Assembly (NCBI GenBank): GCA_002401455.1
Contig: NVTE01000009.1
Coordinates: forward strand, 1 to 64,000
Reading direction: 5' to 3'
Source of the DNA: Alphaproteobacteria bacterium
GTDB taxonomy: Bacteria; Pseudomonadota; Alphaproteobacteria; Sphingomonadales; Emcibacteraceae
Length of the DNA: 64,000 nucleotides
Position numbers and translations under genes: made by a program. Each line of letters opens with the position of its first letter. Positions within the stretch are counted from its first letter, which is position 1. Shown here piece after piece: positions 34,558 through 42,620 of the stretch. Below the pieces are notes generated by a model. The model searched no databases. It was not told the origin of the DNA and worked only from the letters and a program-made list of their open reading frames with translations.

Positions 34558-34959
34558 ATGGTGATGAATAATTATACCCCCCAACAGCAAAAGATGCTGC
34601 GCCAGGCTCAGGCCGTCATTGATGACGCGAGTGATACCTATGATGAAATATTAAAGGCCCATATTCGGGACTTGAAAGAATCACTGGCCGAAGGAAACCT
34701 GACTGAGTCCTGTCGGGTCTGCTACCGCATCCAGACCCAGGCCACCACATTTGGCTGGCCCCTGGCCTCCGAGATCGCCGGCTGGTTCAAAAGGCTGCTG
34801 AATAGCCAACAGGACAAGGGGCTGGATTCTGCCATCAACGGTTTATTCCTCGACAGTTTAGACATCCTCATCACAGAAGACCTGAAATCCGACTCCCAAG
34901 CTGCCATCAAACTCTGCCTTCACATCGAGTCTGAACTGAAAGCCACAGAAAGTCCTTAA
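34558..34959 (+). CDS. hypothetical helical protein, possibly a degenerate Hpt-like partner of the response regulator
   Basis: 133 aa, starts immediately after the response-regulator stop; CYRIQTQATTFGWPLASEIA resembles an Hpt core with His replaced. Confidence 0.55.
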   Translation: MVMNNYTPQQQKMLRQAQAVIDDASDTYDEILKAHIRDLKESLAEGNLTESCRVCYRIQTQATTFGWPLASEIAGWFKRLLNSQQDKGLDSAINGLFLDSLDILITEDLKSDSQAAIKLCLHIESELKATESP

Positions 34960-35205
34960 CATGAGCCAGAAAGGACCGGCTTTATTCGTAGTGCAACGCC
35001 TGAATATGGTCCGGCTCTTCATCATTTTACGTCTCCGATTCTATACTCGGACACCCCTTAACAGACTGCACAGTTTTTTAGAACCACCTTAAAGTTAATG
35101 AACCAGCCCCCCCCCTGGACAGGTGTTTGCTTGACTTTGTTATTGAGAACAATATCTTGGTCATATTAGCTGAGCAGATAGGATTGTATAATCCGCTTTG
35201 TTGTA

Positions 35206-35886
35206 ATGATGTCAGGGATATATAATATTGTGAGATTTGAATTTAACAATTCACCGTGGAAGATTGCCAATCCACAGCAAAAGAGATTTCTGGGAAAAGC
35301 CATTCCCCCGTTGCCCAATATGCCGAAGGAGGTTGCCCCTCCCGTTTTCTGGACTTGTACGCCGCCGTTTTACCAAAATGTAAATCTCATCTGCATCAGC
35401 CATAATCTGGGCGAGGATGAGAAAATAAATCTATATTATCTTCAGCATTATTCACCAGAAGATAAAGAAAATACCTTTCATTTCCTCAATGGGCTTTCAC
35501 ATCCTATTCACGTCCTTAATTCAAAAATATCTCTTATTCTTGCCCCCGAACATATTCTGGATTATCTCTGCTTTTTTTGCTTTTTTGTTCATGGTGAATC
35601 AGGCCCGTTTTATGTTTTGCGGAACAGAGAAGACCCCGCAATCCCGCAATCCATATGGGCGGGAGATTTTTTCGGTTGTGATTCCCTGAATGATTTATTC
35701 AGAGAACCCTGTGTCACGGTTGCCAATCCTGAAGGAAGCACCCGATATTCTACCTTAATATATTACAGCAACGTGCTATCCATAGCCGACTTTTCTATTC
35801 AGCCCGATGGTATGATTATGATGGAAGAAAGTGAAAGCCTCCTTTCTGACCTGCCGTTTACCCTAAATATTTCCCTAAAAATTTAA
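35206..35886 (+). CDS. uncharacterised protein homologous to the C-terminal domain of the downstream VirD4-like ATPase
   Basis: 226 aa; PPFYQ, LAPEHILDYLCFFC and REPCVTVANPEGSTRYSTLIYYSNVLS match PPFYQ, LRPKHIADYLAFYC and KEPHVLEVRKNSEGITDYYRVNATVLC of the next gene. Confidence 0.75.
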   Translation: MMSGIYNIVRFEFNNSPWKIANPQQKRFLGKAIPPLPNMPKEVAPPVFWTCTPPFYQNVNLICISHNLGEDEKINLYYLQHYSPEDKENTFHFLNGLSHPIHVLNSKISLILAPEHILDYLCFFCFFVHGESGPFYVLRNREDPAIPQSIWAGDFFGCDSLNDLFREPCVTVANPEGSTRYSTLIYYSNVLSIADFSIQPDGMIMMEESESLLSDLPFTLNISLKI

Positions 35887-35899
35887 AAAGGAACGACCC

Positions 35900-38053
35900 G
35901 TGACACGAAAAGTATCAAGCAGTTTACCGGATCAGGGATTATTGGTTGGCTGGTCACTGGAAACGGTCGCCCGTCAGAAAATATTTGGCTTTCATTCGGA
36001 ACGGGATTATCAGAAACCAAGCCAGTTTCTGGAACCTATTCTTCAGGAGGAAGAAGGTCATCTGATAACCATCGCCCCCACGGGCACAGGAAAGGGCGTA
36101 AGCTCCATCATTCCTGCCTTGCTGCGCTACCCCGGCCCAATCGTTGTTATCGACCCAAAGGGTGAGAATTACGCGGTAACCGCCCGCAGGCGTCGGGAAA
36201 TGGGACAAAAAGTTGTGGTATTAGACCCGTTTGAAATAACCGATGCCTCCCGTCTGGACAGGGCAAGATTTAACCCGCTGGATTTTATTTCCCCAACGTC
36301 CGATAGCCTCATTGAAGATACGGAAATGCTCGCCGCCATACTGGCAGGGGAAGAATTGGCAACCGCCCGCGAGGTCTTCTGGCCACGAATGGGCTATCAG
36401 TTGATCGTTTTTATTATTCTTTATCAATTCAGAACACTTCCGCCGGAAAAATGGACCCTGCTGGAGACCCGACGAATCATTGGTCAAGGGCCGGAAGCCT
36501 TGGGCAAAATTGGTGAGGAGGTCATGAAAGGAAATGATGAAATATTAAAAAGTCAGGCTGGTCTGGTCTTAAATCCTGCTGACAGCACTGTTGGCGGTTA
36601 CTGGGCCCATGCCCAGTCTATGTTGAGCTTTCTCAAAGGCCGCCTGCTTGAGAAGAACCTGATTAAGTCAACCTTTTCACTGGATGACATTGTTGAAAAC
36701 AAACCAATCACGCTATATCTGGTGATCCCGCCTGAAAAACTCACATCACATAAGGCCTTGATGCGATTATGGTTGAGTACAATTGTCTCTGCCATCAGTT
36801 GCCGAACAATTCGTCCAAAAACACCAACGTTGATGATATTGGATGAGGCCGCCCAGCTTGGCCATATGCCTCAAATCGAAGACGCCATCACCCTGTTGAG
36901 AGGATACGGCGTGAAAGTGTGGAGTTTCTGGCAGGACCTGTCACAAATAAAAAAACTCTATCCCGTCAGTTGGGAAACCATCCTTAACAACTGTGCCGTA
37001 CAACAATTTTTTGGCCAGACGACGGAACTTGCGGCCCGGGCAGTCCATGATGTGAGCGGCTATGGCTCAGCGGGAGAAATCCGACGCCTTGACCGTAGCG
37101 AAATGGTATTAAGTATCGGCGGGGACAGTCCTGTCATTGTGCAAAAGCCAAATTATCTGGAGGATGAGCCCTTCAAAGGTTTATTTGACCAAAACCCTTT
37201 TTACCGTGATGCAGAAGACGTCAAACAGATCGGACGGTCTCAACGTATTTTCCGACGCCATGACCCGTTAGCCAAATTGAGGCGACAGGGACCACGAAAA
37301 GGCCGAACCGGAACCTCTTATCCCTCAATAACCAGAGAGGCGGATCTGGACCGCCGTCTGCATAGTCATCCGATTTCTGCTGAACGCTGGCAAGAGGTCC
37401 CCGAGGATGAGAAGGCATCCCTTTTGGAACAAGTGGAGCAACTCTATTGGATGCCTTATTTTTCCGATGGGGAGAATGTGACCCTGCGGTGCTGGCAGCC
37501 GCCCTTTTATCAGGACGCCTGGCATTTTGAACTTCGGCTCGAAATTGATGGCCAGACAAAATTTGGATATTTTCTGATACAGGAAGATAAAATATATCCC
37601 TTCACCGGCGGCGAGATGGAGATCATAGAATTAAACAATGAGCTAACCTTAGATTTAAGGCCGAAACATATTGCCGACTATCTGGCCTTTTACTGTGCAA
37701 ACTACATCAGTCCCTACGGGCGGTTATTTTTAGTGGACCATCCCGATGAACTGGTTTTAGTTGAGGATGTGGATAAAGCCTATTATCAGGCCATCTGTGA
37801 CGAGCTTAAGGAACCCCATGTCCTTGAGGTACGCAAAAATTCCGAGGGCATAACGGATTACTACCGGGTGAATGCGACGGTCCTGTGTGGGGATACCCTG
37901 TCCCGTATTACCTTTGGCGTTCATACGTCAGGATGTGTGGACATGGACGAAATAGAAGTCCTCTTTGCAGAAGTTCCAACCCTCAGCCAAAATTTTCTTA
38001 GAATCGCCGACCTGATCTGGCGGGAGAAAGCCGACACGAATAATACCGTTTAG
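35900..38053 (+). CDS. soluble VirD4/TraG-like (type IV coupling protein-like) ATPase with novel C-terminal domain
   Basis: 717 aa; Walker A ITIAPTGTGKGVSSIIPALLRYPGPIVVIDPKGENYAVTARRR, LMILDEAAQLGHMPQIEDAITLLRGYGVKVWSFWQDLSQIKKLYP; no N-terminal TM helices. Confidence 0.88.
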   Translation: MTRKVSSSLPDQGLLVGWSLETVARQKIFGFHSERDYQKPSQFLEPILQEEEGHLITIAPTGTGKGVSSIIPALLRYPGPIVVIDPKGENYAVTARRRREMGQKVVVLDPFEITDASRLDRARFNPLDFISPTSDSLIEDTEMLAAILAGEELATAREVFWPRMGYQLIVFIILYQFRTLPPEKWTLLETRRIIGQGPEALGKIGEEVMKGNDEILKSQAGLVLNPADSTVGGYWAHAQSMLSFLKGRLLEKNLIKSTFSLDDIVENKPITLYLVIPPEKLTSHKALMRLWLSTIVSAISCRTIRPKTPTLMILDEAAQLGHMPQIEDAITLLRGYGVKVWSFWQDLSQIKKLYPVSWETILNNCAVQQFFGQTTELAARAVHDVSGYGSAGEIRRLDRSEMVLSIGGDSPVIVQKPNYLEDEPFKGLFDQNPFYRDAEDVKQIGRSQRIFRRHDPLAKLRRQGPRKGRTGTSYPSITREADLDRRLHSHPISAERWQEVPEDEKASLLEQVEQLYWMPYFSDGENVTLRCWQPPFYQDAWHFELRLEIDGQTKFGYFLIQEDKIYPFTGGEMEIIELNNELTLDLRPKHIADYLAFYCANYISPYGRLFLVDHPDELVLVEDVDKAYYQAICDELKEPHVLEVRKNSEGITDYYRVNATVLCGDTLSRITFGVHTSGCVDMDEIEVLFAEVPTLSQNFLRIADLIWREKADTNNTV

Positions 38054-38075
38054 GGACCAGAATTTACTCCCTGCA

Positions 38076-41000
38076 TTACTTAAAAGATGTCAGATTTTTC
38101 CTGATTTGCGCGGCATCCAGAGGTTTGTCGATGGCATCCAAAAATGCGGCGTAGAGGTCTGTCACCACGGCAAGTTTTGGTCTAGAGGTATTTTTATCTT
38201 TATAGATGTTATCATAGCTCAGCACAATCAGACCCAGAGCCAAGTCCGGCTTCCCCATCCTGAAATGCAACCATCCTAGCCGGGCTTTCGAAATTTCCAG
38301 TGCAAAAACATAATCGCCTTTATTTTCCTCTGAAAATCGGTCAATTGCCGCTTGAATATGCGTTAAGGCCTGATCATAATTCCCTATTTCACAATGGGCG
38401 AAACCCAGTTTGCTGCGCAAATAAGCGACACTGATTATGGAAAGTTCACCCTTCTTTTCATAGGCCTGCATAGCTTTCTCACAGATGGCTATGGCGTCAT
38501 CAAATCGTTTTTGGAGATTCAAATTATGGACAAGACTATCAAGAAGAGTAAGGCTAGTTTCATGATCATATCCCAATTCCTCGCCATATAACGCGTAGGA
38601 TTCTCTGATATTCTCTTCTGATTCTTCTATAAGTCCCTGATTTTCCAAACAATTTGCCAAGTTCCACAATAGTTTAGCACGCCACTGAATTCCTAGGACC
38701 TCACGCGCCTTGCCACTCCCCAGAAGGTAATTCAATAACGGTATCGCATCTATCCAACGCTGTTGTTCCATGAGGTTGTCGGAGAGTCTAATAACAGCAA
38801 AAAGGGTGTTTTTATGACCAACCCCAACAGCCTCTGTTGACTGCTCTATGGACTTATGATGATATTTTTCTGCCTCCAGATATCTTTTTTGGTGATCAAG
38901 GTTGATCGCCAGTTCTCGCGTTGTCCAGATGACAAACTCTTCCTCAGGCTGTTCTTCCTGATCAAAAATCTGAAAAGACCGTCGACAATATTTCTCAGCA
39001 ACTTCATATTGTCCCAAATTCTGATGAATGGTTGCAAGACGGTTTAACTGACGAAGACAATTGCGGTGATTAAGGCCATTGGCCTTCTCGGCATGGTGTA
39101 AACTGTTTAAATAAAAGGACTCTGCGACTTTATACTTCTCCTGATGAAAAAGTGATTCTGCAAGAAAAAAGTCCAGATCAACCGCGTCACCTTCTGAGAT
39201 ATCGATGTCTATTTTCATCATTTTCCGGAAAAGGTTTTCACTGTCGGCGTGTTTACCTTGAGGAGTCAGGCTAAGGGCTAATCTAAATATGGCCCAATAG
39301 ATTCTGTCGGGCTGTTCGGCAAAAAAATCTTCACATGTGGCCAGAGCTTTTCTGAATAATATCTCTGCCTCACCATATCTTTCCTGCTCACAAAGAAATT
39401 CGCCATGATCGAATTGGGACATTATTGATCCCGTGCCGTTTTTAATTGATCTGCTGCCGTTTTTATTCTCCGCTTTGTCAACAACAGCTAAAAGGCGATT
39501 GTAATAATCTTCTGCTTCTTCCAGCCGTTCCACTTTCTGCAACAGCTTGGCAAATAGATAAAGATGATTTACAGTATTTTCATGGTCCGGACCGTATTTT
39601 TTTTCAAAGATAGCAAGGCTTTCCCGCAGAAGTTCTTCGCCCTCATCATACTTCCCAAGCTTGATAACATTGATTGCTAAATTTAATATAGATTGCGATG
39701 TTCCGGCATGCTCCCGACCAAAAACACCTTCACCAATGCGCAGGCTTTCGCGGAATCTAATTTCGGCACTTTTAATCTTTCCAAGCGCGACCAGGGTATG
39801 GGCCACAAGACTGTTCGCATCTGCCATTTTATCACTCTCAGGGCCATAAAGACGTTTGATTTTCTCTTCATAATCCTTACTGATCGCGAAAGATTCCTCA
39901 TATTTCCCAAGCGCAGAAACCGCTTGTGAGAGATAATTTTGAGCTTTGAGAAGTTTGGGATGGGTTTCTTCAACCACCCCCTGTAATATTTCCATACTTT
40001 GTCTGAACAGACTTTCTGCTTCTCCATATTTTTCTTGATCATACAAACAATCTGCAAGATCAATCAGCAAAACGCCCCCAGCGTAGGAGGTCAATTTATT
40101 TTGACTCTCAATGACTTTAAAACTACGTCTTAAATCATTTTCTGCCTCCAGATAATCACACATAGCATTTAAAGCGATACCACGCGCCTGCAGGGCCTTC
40201 GCCAACAGCATATCGTCCCCTAGTCCTTGGGCAAGCTCTACGGCTTGTTCGGCAAATTTTTTCATTAGTGAATAATCAGAGTCCATTCCTGCGGCTCTTA
40301 CATTTAAACAGAAACCTATAATACGGACCTTTTGAGACTCACTAACCTCTCTTTCCATCAGGTGACTTTCCAATGTCCCCAGGACGGTTTTCAACATGTA
40401 GAAATTATACTCCCCCTCGAAAAATTCCATCGCCCGCAAAATGGGCTGGAAATATTGACTATCATTGAGCGCGATCGCCTGTTGAATCGCCTGCTCCAAG
40501 GCAGAAATAGTTTCATCAGAGAGATGCATTTCTTCGGATGATCTGAATTGACCCAAAAAATACTCAACATAGAACTTATGGCTTTCGCGCTTCTCATCAT
40601 CGGAAATAAGGCTGCTAACAACATCACGAACCAAACCGTTCAAGGTATAAAAACCCGCCATATCCGCGATAGGAGAGAAAATAGACAGTTCTACAATATC
40701 GTTGAATTCCCCGTCCGGAATGCCAATTTTAAATCGCCCGATTACAGCTTCTGCAATCTTTTTATTGAAACGATCAAGGGGGGACAGGCGAATAAGCAGC
40801 CATTTCATGCGTTCATCATAATCCCGGATAAAACGGGTAACCAGTTCATGTGTGATGGCATTGCGGCCACTGCCCTCTACTTTGAAATCATCCGGAACCG
40901 GTGGTTGCTGCGTATTGTATTTTAAATGCAGATAATGGTCCGCATGAAGGTCCAATAAAAAAGGATGCGCCGTTGCGATGGTATCGCCCGCATCTTTTAT

Positions 41001-42044
41001 ACTGGCACTCTTTACGATCTCCGCCCGGATGTCTTGTTCTTCAATGGGGATTAGGCTCAAGAAATGATCGGCATCCTCCGCCGCCAACCCGTCCAAGGCA
41101 TGATGAGCATCCACCATATCTTCGGTCCAGTCGTCATCCAGTACGGCCCAATGGAGCTTCTCCCGCGAGAAAAACACAAACAGGGCGTTCTTGACCAACA
41201 TGACCAATTCTTTAATGGCGCTATCCACAGGATGTTTTCTTAATTTCAGATTTGTCGGCTGGTCTTTCCACAGAATCTCATATTCATCAATGAAGATAAC
41301 AATCTTCTGTTTCGCTTCCTGTAGCCCCTGAAAGCCACCGGCCACCCGTGCGTTTTGGTAACGCCTGAGGTCCTGCGCCAGAAAATAGGGCAATAACTCT
41401 TCCACCTCCGAGCCCGGGATGATGTCTACACTATTGGGCTTTTGCAACCTGGAAAGTTCAGCAAATAATTTTTGCGTAATTATCCGGTTGCCCTTTTTAA
41501 CGACCCATCGTCCGCCTTTGGCCAGTAATGCGCCGACACCGGGCAGTCCGGCAAAAAGTTCAACAACCAAATCTCCACCCGCTTCGGCCACATTGGCGAA
41601 AAAATCTTCCCCCCGTGCGAACAGTCTTTTGACCTTGTCCGGTTGGGCTTGCTCGGCAAAGGATTTTTCCCAAAAAACCGCAAAAGCAATGTCAAACATG
41701 GCAAAGCTGATGTCATGCCTTTTGGCAAAATTATTGCGTAACCGCAGCATAACTTCCCACGCGGCGGCCTGGGCATTACCCCGCAGGTCAACATGGGCGG
41801 AGATAACATCGGCAAAGAGGTCTTTATCTTCGGGTTTAATATGTTTCAGGGATAAATTTAAGGCTTTGCACAGGGCCGTTTTCCCCTGACCGCCAACACC
41901 GTGATAAACAAGAATCTTAACTTTATCTCCCTTTATCTCAGCCAGCCGTTCGCGAAATAATTTGCGCGGCCCTTCCCGGTCAGTAAAGAGGTCCTCTGCC
42001 GGTGGTTTTTTATCTCGTGTGAGATACTTGGAACGTGGCGGCAT
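38076..42044 (-). CDS. STAND-type (NB-ARC/NACHT-like) ATPase with long tetratricopeptide repeat array
   Basis: Start refined to MPPRSKYLTRD (GAGGAG upstream; the longer ORF starts at 42107). Walker A YHGVGGQGKTALCK, Walker B KIVIFIDEYEILW, then many TPR-like repeats (e.g. EEAEDYYNRLLAVVDKAE, GEAEILFRKALATCEDFF). Confidence 0.82.
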   Translation of the reverse strand: MPPRSKYLTRDKKPPAEDLFTDREGPRKLFRERLAEIKGDKVKILVYHGVGGQGKTALCKALNLSLKHIKPEDKDLFADVISAHVDLRGNAQAAAWEVMLRLRNNFAKRHDISFAMFDIAFAVFWEKSFAEQAQPDKVKRLFARGEDFFANVAEAGGDLVVELFAGLPGVGALLAKGGRWVVKKGNRIITQKLFAELSRLQKPNSVDIIPGSEVEELLPYFLAQDLRRYQNARVAGGFQGLQEAKQKIVIFIDEYEILWKDQPTNLKLRKHPVDSAIKELVMLVKNALFVFFSREKLHWAVLDDDWTEDMVDAHHALDGLAAEDADHFLSLIPIEEQDIRAEIVKSASIKDAGDTIATAHPFLLDLHADHYLHLKYNTQQPPVPDDFKVEGSGRNAITHELVTRFIRDYDERMKWLLIRLSPLDRFNKKIAEAVIGRFKIGIPDGEFNDIVELSIFSPIADMAGFYTLNGLVRDVVSSLISDDEKRESHKFYVEYFLGQFRSSEEMHLSDETISALEQAIQQAIALNDSQYFQPILRAMEFFEGEYNFYMLKTVLGTLESHLMEREVSESQKVRIIGFCLNVRAAGMDSDYSLMKKFAEQAVELAQGLGDDMLLAKALQARGIALNAMCDYLEAENDLRRSFKVIESQNKLTSYAGGVLLIDLADCLYDQEKYGEAESLFRQSMEILQGVVEETHPKLLKAQNYLSQAVSALGKYEESFAISKDYEEKIKRLYGPESDKMADANSLVAHTLVALGKIKSAEIRFRESLRIGEGVFGREHAGTSQSILNLAINVIKLGKYDEGEELLRESLAIFEKKYGPDHENTVNHLYLFAKLLQKVERLEEAEDYYNRLLAVVDKAENKNGSRSIKNGTGSIMSQFDHGEFLCEQERYGEAEILFRKALATCEDFFAEQPDRIYWAIFRLALSLTPQGKHADSENLFRKMMKIDIDISEGDAVDLDFFLAESLFHQEKYKVAESFYLNSLHHAEKANGLNHRNCLRQLNRLATIHQNLGQYEVAEKYCRRSFQIFDQEEQPEEEFVIWTTRELAINLDHQKRYLEAEKYHHKSIEQSTEAVGVGHKNTLFAVIRLSDNLMEQQRWIDAIPLLNYLLGSGKAREVLGIQWRAKLLWNLANCLENQGLIEESEENIRESYALYGEELGYDHETSLTLLDSLVHNLNLQKRFDDAIAICEKAMQAYEKKGELSIISVAYLRSKLGFAHCEIGNYDQALTHIQAAIDRFSEENKGDYVFALEISKARLGWLHFRMGKPDLALGLIVLSYDNIYKDKNTSRPKLAVVTDLYAAFLDAIDKPLDAAQIRKNLTSFK

Positions 42045-42113
42045 ACTCTCCTCTTTTTCCTGAATAATGTCTTCTAGAAACTTATTGCATGAAGCAAGGG
42101 GCTGCAAGTGTTA

Positions 42114-42564
42114 ATAAAGCGCCATTGCTTTTGATATTGTCTATGCCGTTGATCCAGATGAACCATATATGGTTCGGGTGGCCAAGACAGCGATCAACTG
42201 GGGCTATACCAATTGGAAGGGTATGACCTTTGGGCTGATTTTCGCTGCCGCCTTTCTGGCATTTCTATTATTATTGCTAAAATGGGGACGGTCACGTAAT
42301 CCGATACTCAACAGTCTTAAGGGGCTGGTGACGGGTGTCCCGTTATGCGTTTGTGTCAACTGCACGATGCCGATTGCGTTTGATGTGATTGTGGTGGCCA
42401 CCCTGATTGCTATTGGGATGCCGGTTGGGTTGGCCATGACCCTGCTGTTTTCACTGGATATTTTCAATATTTATCCTGCCATGGTCATTGGGCAGTATAT
42501 CTCCCGCAAGCTTTCGCTTTTTTTGCTGGTAAGCGTGGGGAGTGGGGCGAGTGACCGGGATTGA
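42114..42564 (+). pseudogene. truncated integral-membrane permease fragment next to tRNA-His
   Basis: Open frame without an obvious start, SAIAFDIVYAVDPDEPYMVRVAKTAINWGYTNWKGMTFGLIFAAAFLAFLLLLLKW...GLVTGVPLCVCVNCTMPIAFDV...; 3' end runs into tRNA-His. Confidence 0.55.
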
Positions 42565-42620
42565 ACCGGCGACTTCCAGAATCACAATCTGGCGCTCTAA
42601 CCAACTGAGCTACACCCGCC
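42543..42620 (-). tRNA. tRNA-His(GTG)
   Basis: Minus strand G-GCGGGTG-TAGCTCAGTTGGTTAGAGC-GCCAGATTGTGATTCTGG-AAGTC-GCCGGTTCAATCCCGGT-CACTCGC-C-CCA; anticodon GTG, encoded CCA, extra G(-1). Confidence 0.96.

Follow-up and report, generated by a model that had tools for sequence, protein, structure and literature searches.

The window analysed here, a 64,000-nt stretch of contig NVTE01000009.1 from an alphaproteobacterium of the Emcibacteraceae, contains an accessory insert next to a tRNA-His gene (Table 1). A gene for a 226-aa protein lies directly upstream of the gene for a VirD4-like ATPase, and both products carry a domain that is called X below. A gene for a STAND-like NTPase with tetratricopeptide repeats (STAND-TPR) lies in the same insert, convergent with the ATPase gene. 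The preliminary description of this DNA missed that the ATPase has no membrane anchor, that the block is an insert at tRNA-His, and that X is found on NLR-like proteins elsewhere.

Table 1. Genes, domains and sites of the insert (positions in the window)
Feature	Position	Strand	Evidence
Stand-alone X-domain protein, 226 aa	35206..35886	+	ORF; outside profile E=2.1e-34
X domain of stand-alone protein (~residues 51-221)	35356..35868	+	hhalign boundaries
VirD4-like ATPase, C-terminal X, 717 aa, no N-terminal transmembrane anchor	35900..38053	+	Pfam; hydropathy
VirD4/TraG-type ATPase domain, Walker A APTGTGKG, Walker B LMILDEAAQLG	35900..37213	+	Alignments
X domain fused to ATPase (~residues 524-698)	37469..37993	+	Outside profile E=2.1e-26; hhalign 98.9%
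STAND-like NTPase with tetratricopeptide repeats, 1343 aa	38076..42107	-	P-loop GVGGQGKT; TPR_12 1.5e-72
ArsP-like permease fragment, remnant at insert edge	42169..42564	+	Weak Pfam match E=0.0013, below cut-off
tRNA-His (gtg), insertion site	42543..42619	-	ARAGORN; present in relatives' empty sites too
Accessory insert, GC ~42-50%	34960..42542	.	Synteny; GC

The insert at tRNA-His

In four genomes of the same genus (G015, G010, G004 and G008), tRNA-His, glnB and glnA come next after the counterpart of the gene at 34558-34959, at an interval of less than 1 kb; G008 has a tRNA-Gly and a short stretch at the site in addition. No such block was found at the tRNA-His site of these genomes. In the window, the stand-alone X gene, the ATPase gene, the STAND-TPR gene and the permease fragment all lie between this gene and tRNA-His, on the 3' side of the tRNA, and the GC content of the insert (approximately 42-50%) compares with 50-61% in the preceding DNA and 51-54% in the DNA that follows. 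A different element of approximately 23 kb, with a second tRNA-His, occupies the same site in genome G013 (L119 3617-19901 and L120 1-7117), and the tRNA-His site looks like an integration hotspot. No left att repeat of the window insert was found. By eye, the G013 element is adjoined by an integrase-like reading frame. The permease fragment covers positions 173-282 of the 294 positions of its Pfam model in a match below the cut-off; it ends inside tRNA-His and is apparently a truncated remnant.

Domain X: homology, spread and ancestry

The proposal that the 226-aa protein and the C-terminus of the ATPase have a domain in common was borne out by direct alignment, by shuffling and by an outside profile. 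Both ORFs have the positions given in the preliminary description. BLASTP (E=7e-12) aligns residues 53-217 of the 226-aa protein with ATPase residues 534-693, with 26% identity. When the ATPase C-terminal region was shuffled 2,000 times, no shuffle scored above 25 bits, against 51 bits for the real sequence. For a non-circular test, a profile was made solely from X domains of other organisms, 44 in all, with no window sequence among them; the search that yielded these members had used the window copies as part of its seeds, several of the seeds (Sinorhizobium, Tistrella) having been reached through the stand-alone copy alone. This profile matched only two of the 372 ORFs of the window, the 226-aa protein and the ATPase C-terminus (E-values in Table 1). 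An HMM comparison, a check of the kind that the preliminary description had called for, agreed: hhalign against a smaller outside set of X domains gave 99.7% for the stand-alone copy and 98.9% for the ATPase C-terminus. Domain X is approximately 170 aa long, with the boundaries given in Table 1. Its three motifs occur in the order originally described, namely PPFYQN in the stand-alone copy and PPFYQD in the ATPase, LAPEHILDYLCFFC and LRPKHIADYLAFYC respectively, and REPCV..EGSTRY and KEPHV..EGITDYY respectively; the "TxYY" described for the third motif is literal in the ATPase copy only, and the spacing of this motif differs by two residues between the copies.

No known family had been recognised for X in the preliminary description, and it gave no match in Pfam, NCBIfam, PHROG or PADLOC; nor did its members have any Pfam family in common. 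Staphostatin A matched 1 of the 46 members of the X profile A9 at E=0.015, which was taken as chance. In a sequence search of solved structures with X, the best match was monellin (E=0.083). Two AlphaFold models, for which the two window copies were the only input, had mean pLDDT values of 48 and 53; at this low confidence, both predict strands, a long helix and a final sheet of strands in the same order, and Foldseek found nothing for them at E<=0.001. X has no clear membrane segment.

A search for other carriers, which had also been suggested, found X across the alphaproteobacteria in both stand-alone and fused form. It was present in 25 of 385 genomes of the class (approximately 6.5%), 11 of which have several copies, and in 11 of 399 genomes of the phylum. 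When the stand-alone protein was compared with the 101 nearest genomes, the window's own among them, only the window's genome gave a match. X was also found in five plasmid records and in no phage record; a viral origin was rejected on the latter result and on scans of viral contigs, none of which had a contig bearing X.

X occurs at the C-terminus of nSTAND1-ankyrin proteins on Sinorhizobium plasmids and in genome G566. A second nSTAND1 protein of G566 has X internally, an AAA_16/TPR protein from Thiodictyon ends in X, and in G758 a stand-alone X gene adjoins an nSTAND1-ankyrin gene. The Sinorhizobium X locus also encodes a patatin similar to CBASS phospholipase effectors (PADLOC, 7e-47). The window is linked to these NLR-like nSTAND1-ankyrin proteins by the C-terminal X that they carry in Sinorhizobium and G566; unlike them, the window STAND-TPR protein has no X, as judged with the outside profile on the 372 window ORFs. 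The pattern is reminiscent of the effector-associated domains (EADs) of bacterial conflict systems, small domains that recur in stand-alone form and as terminal fusions to STAND proteins, with several copies per genome (PMC8195603). X likewise occurs both on its own and as a terminal fusion, with several copies in one genome, and is linked to STAND proteins, a likeness in pattern of use alone. Unlike EADs, it adjoins peptidases and chaperones and is not fused to known effectors, and its low-confidence models are alpha+beta.

Genes for DUF6782 putative metallopeptidases directly adjoin X at four loci according to Pfam (L057, L079, L081 and L084), and genes of the DUF6782 sequence cluster adjoin it at three others (L068, L082 and L083). 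An Hsp70-like gene identified by Pfam lies directly before a stand-alone X gene in L077 (7038-10320), and a similar one does so in L072. These neighbours favour a reading in which X would bind clients in proteostasis, such that the VirD4-like ring would unfold or move proteins delivered by X, while other X proteins would feed DUF6782 or Hsp70-like proteins. We consider this reading unlikely, since the substrates of VirD4 motors are mostly DNA or secreted proteins, and the distribution of X-VirD4, sporadic and on islands, is unlike that of housekeeping proteostasis. At L079, L081 and L083, several putative metallopeptidase genes of the DUF6782 cluster lie near a single X gene. In L073 and L075, stand-alone X genes lie near genes that by eye are lysozyme-like.

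In a tree of 49 X rows, the stand-alone X of the window groups with the X of genome G776 (99/94), and next joins the X domains fused to the nSTAND1-ankyrin proteins of Sinorhizobium (99/87 and 99/92). A separate group is made up of the X partners of other VirD4s and has the NLR-fused X of Thiodictyon within it (95/94), and the ATPase-fused X is a long branch with no firm place. The AU test rejected a grouping of the stand-alone X with the VirD4 partners (p=2.5e-5); a sister relationship of the two window copies (p=0.38) and a grouping of the fused X with the VirD4 partners (p=0.27) were not rejected. These results bear on the suggestion that the locus arose by duplication or fusion of one domain. 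The fusion stands, as X is indeed fused to the VirD4-like ATPase; a recent local duplication appears unsupported by the tree and the AU test. It would require that a tandem copy of the X gene had joined the ATPase gene at its 3' end, without any particular functional meaning, and although the copies are adjacent and their sisterhood was not rejected, we hold this highly improbable given their low identity and the free tree, in which the stand-alone copy sits among NLR-fused X domains and the fused copy falls elsewhere.

The VirD4-like ATPase and its pairing with X

Residues 51-375 of the ATPase match T4SS-DNA_transf (PF02534, E=7.1e-55), and TraG-D_C (PF12696) is also matched (E=4.5e-17). The protein resembles the VirD4/TraG coupling proteins in its nucleotide-binding domain, the Walker A and B motifs of which are conserved in alignment, and its C-terminal extension sits where some coupling proteins carry one. 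Unlike these proteins, the window type has no N-terminal membrane domain, occurs in several hosts without VirB4, and is paired with X genes. An N-terminal transmembrane domain is usual, but not universal, in type IV coupling proteins. In the window ATPase, Walker A lies at residue 61 with no hydrophobic stretch upstream of it, and the maximum hydropathy over 19 residues before Walker A is 0.67, compared with 1.9-2.2 in two more distant VirD4 relatives. Anchor-less relatives were also found in Roseobacter, in one cyanobacterium, and in one Hyphomicrobiales genome without X.

VirB4 (PF03135), used here as the sign of a type IV secretion partner, was not found in the window's own genome (69% complete) or in G746, G1030, G1053, G362 and G862; G704 and G911 do have VirB4, but on a contig other than that of the VirD4-like gene. 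The X-VirD4 module is read as non-secretory because several carrier genomes have no VirB4. The same result weighs on the idea that the ATPase is a coupling protein without a membrane domain of its own, serving conjugation or mobilisation of the island, with X as its anchor or as an adaptor to the relaxosome. The block is mobile, and the best Pfam match of the ATPase is a T4SS DNA-transfer ATPase; moreover, coupling proteins without a membrane domain are known (PMC7434980), and TraI has been proposed as the anchor of TraJ in pIP501 (PMC12857230). We regard this role as quite unlikely, however, since the six genomes that have the ATPase subfamily without VirB4 include near-complete ones, neither a relaxase nor a VirB gene was recognised beside the window pair, and X itself offers no clear membrane segment.

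An anchor-less VirD4 gene has an X gene immediately before it in the window, in Sinorhizobium (L008/L009), and in genomes G746, G704, G1053, G1030 and G911, which belong to one family other than that of the window. Six junctions were read overall: the two genes overlap by an ATGA stop/start in G746, G704, G1053 and G911, and are separated by 3 nt in Sinorhizobium and 13 nt in the window. Among 249 genomes of the family of G746, six have the VirD4 subfamily, seven have X and five have both, a co-occurrence of P=1.6e-8 by a naive hypergeometric test that ignores kinship, with two genera involved. In all five genomes with both, the adjacent X is the sole X of the genome. The recurrence of the pair in other genomes supports a functional partnership of X and the ATPase. 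In the open-access literature, nothing was found on an anchor-less VirD4 paired with X, nor on DUF6782. In S. meliloti RCAM1115 (L009 155-1529), the VirD4-like gene is annotated as two reading frames and is apparently broken.

None of the other VirD4s of these pairs has a fused X, and of the loci seen only the window therefore has the fusion. This bears on the possibility, which follows the competition suggested in the preliminary description, that the free X is an inhibitor or decoy that would occupy the site of the fused X and silence the ATPase until displaced, much like an antitoxin. The two window copies are homologous, and the X gene precedes the ATPase gene and is coupled to it, which fits the usual order of toxin-antitoxin operons, in which the antitoxin gene comes first. 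Such silencing nevertheless seems very unlikely, as the ATPases of all other pairs have no fused X for a free one to compete with, and the free X of the window falls in a different branch from the other VirD4 partners.

A STAND-type ATPase gene adjoins the X-VirD4 pair in the window, Sinorhizobium, G704 and G1053, and in the latter two the STAND-X-VirD4 block adjoins tRNA-Ser. No STAND gene was found beside the pair in G1030 or G911, and none was seen in G746, where the pair (L089 5730-10212) is near dnaA. No tblastn hit joined the window STAND-TPR protein to the STAND proteins found at other X loci, and its link to them is therefore one of type and position only.

A candidate role for the module

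With PADLOC, X had no match, the STAND-TPR protein matched only a generic TPR model, and the ATPase matched mad8 of MADS (PDLC04140, 2.9e-8) along with weaker models, so that none of the three was identified as a component of a catalogued defence system. Mad8 is the best defence-model match of the ATPase region; it is a weak match to the motor domain only, and no other MADS gene was identified in the window. A further comparison, in manner of working, is with HerA-DUF4297 and HerA-Sir2, two-component defence systems in which a HerA motor is encoded with a partner protein (PMC12198126, PMC11291478). The window likewise encodes a motor of the same superfamily with a partner. It differs in that its ATPase best matches VirD4, not HerA, and that X matches no nuclease or Sir2 family.

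We put at about even the chance that the block is an accessory, mobile, non-secretory ATPase module in which X serves as adaptor, most likely acting against invaders (anti-phage or anti-plasmid). The stand-alone X gene and the ATPase would form its core. In favour of this reading are the homology of the two X copies, the recurrent order of X and VirD4 and their co-occurrence, the lack of a hydrophobic N-terminus, the lack of VirB4 in six genomes, the X fusions to nSTAND1-ankyrin proteins (in Sinorhizobium with the patatin), the STAND-type neighbours, the location at tRNA genes, and the several X copies in 11 of the 25 X-positive genomes. HerA/VirD4-type motors are ring-shaped translocases of nucleic acid or protein, and the VirD4-like protein may assemble into such a ring in the cytosol, moving nucleic acid or protein with neither an anchor nor a type IV secretion channel. 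X would be a protein-interaction or ligand-recognition domain that acts as adaptor of this motor, possibly through X-X or X-motor contact, and elsewhere it may serve NLR-like STAND ATPases as a terminal module for recognition. In the lineage of the window, the motor would have its own C-terminal X and pair with a free X as well. Detection of an invader by a sensor or by X could then engage the motor, and the block would spread between genomes as a tRNA-gene island, along with STAND-type ATPases. Against a defence role, X matches no known defence family, the ATPase is only weakly similar to mad8, X-VirD4 has no neighbouring STAND gene in some genomes, and many stand-alone X genes are located among ordinary chromosomal genes.

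A broader proposal, which we make more tentatively and rate at somewhat less than an even chance, is that X is a new adaptor or recognition domain linking NLR-like STAND proteins, orphan VirD4-like motors, and metallopeptidases or chaperones, and that X-VirD4, together with STAND-TPR, is an undescribed mobile immune system built on a former conjugation motor in the cytosol. If the module is as proposed, a conjugation motor would have been recruited without anchor or channel into a mobile, probably immune module, with X as an uncatalogued adaptor, and a role of orphan VirD4 genes outside secretion would become testable. The X profile A9 may provide a handle for NLR-like and VirD4-like systems missed by current defence catalogues.

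Some minor features of the other anchor-less VirD4 loci were observed. In Roseobacter MED193 (L001 738-5798), a gene for a 1686-aa protein with a marginal AAA_16 match (E=0.033) is divergent from the anchor-less VirD4 gene. The cyanobacterial anchor-less VirD4 (L002 5043-7200) has an N-terminal extension of approximately 100 residues, and its neighbour resembles, by eye, the C-terminal domain of ribosomal protein L7/L12.
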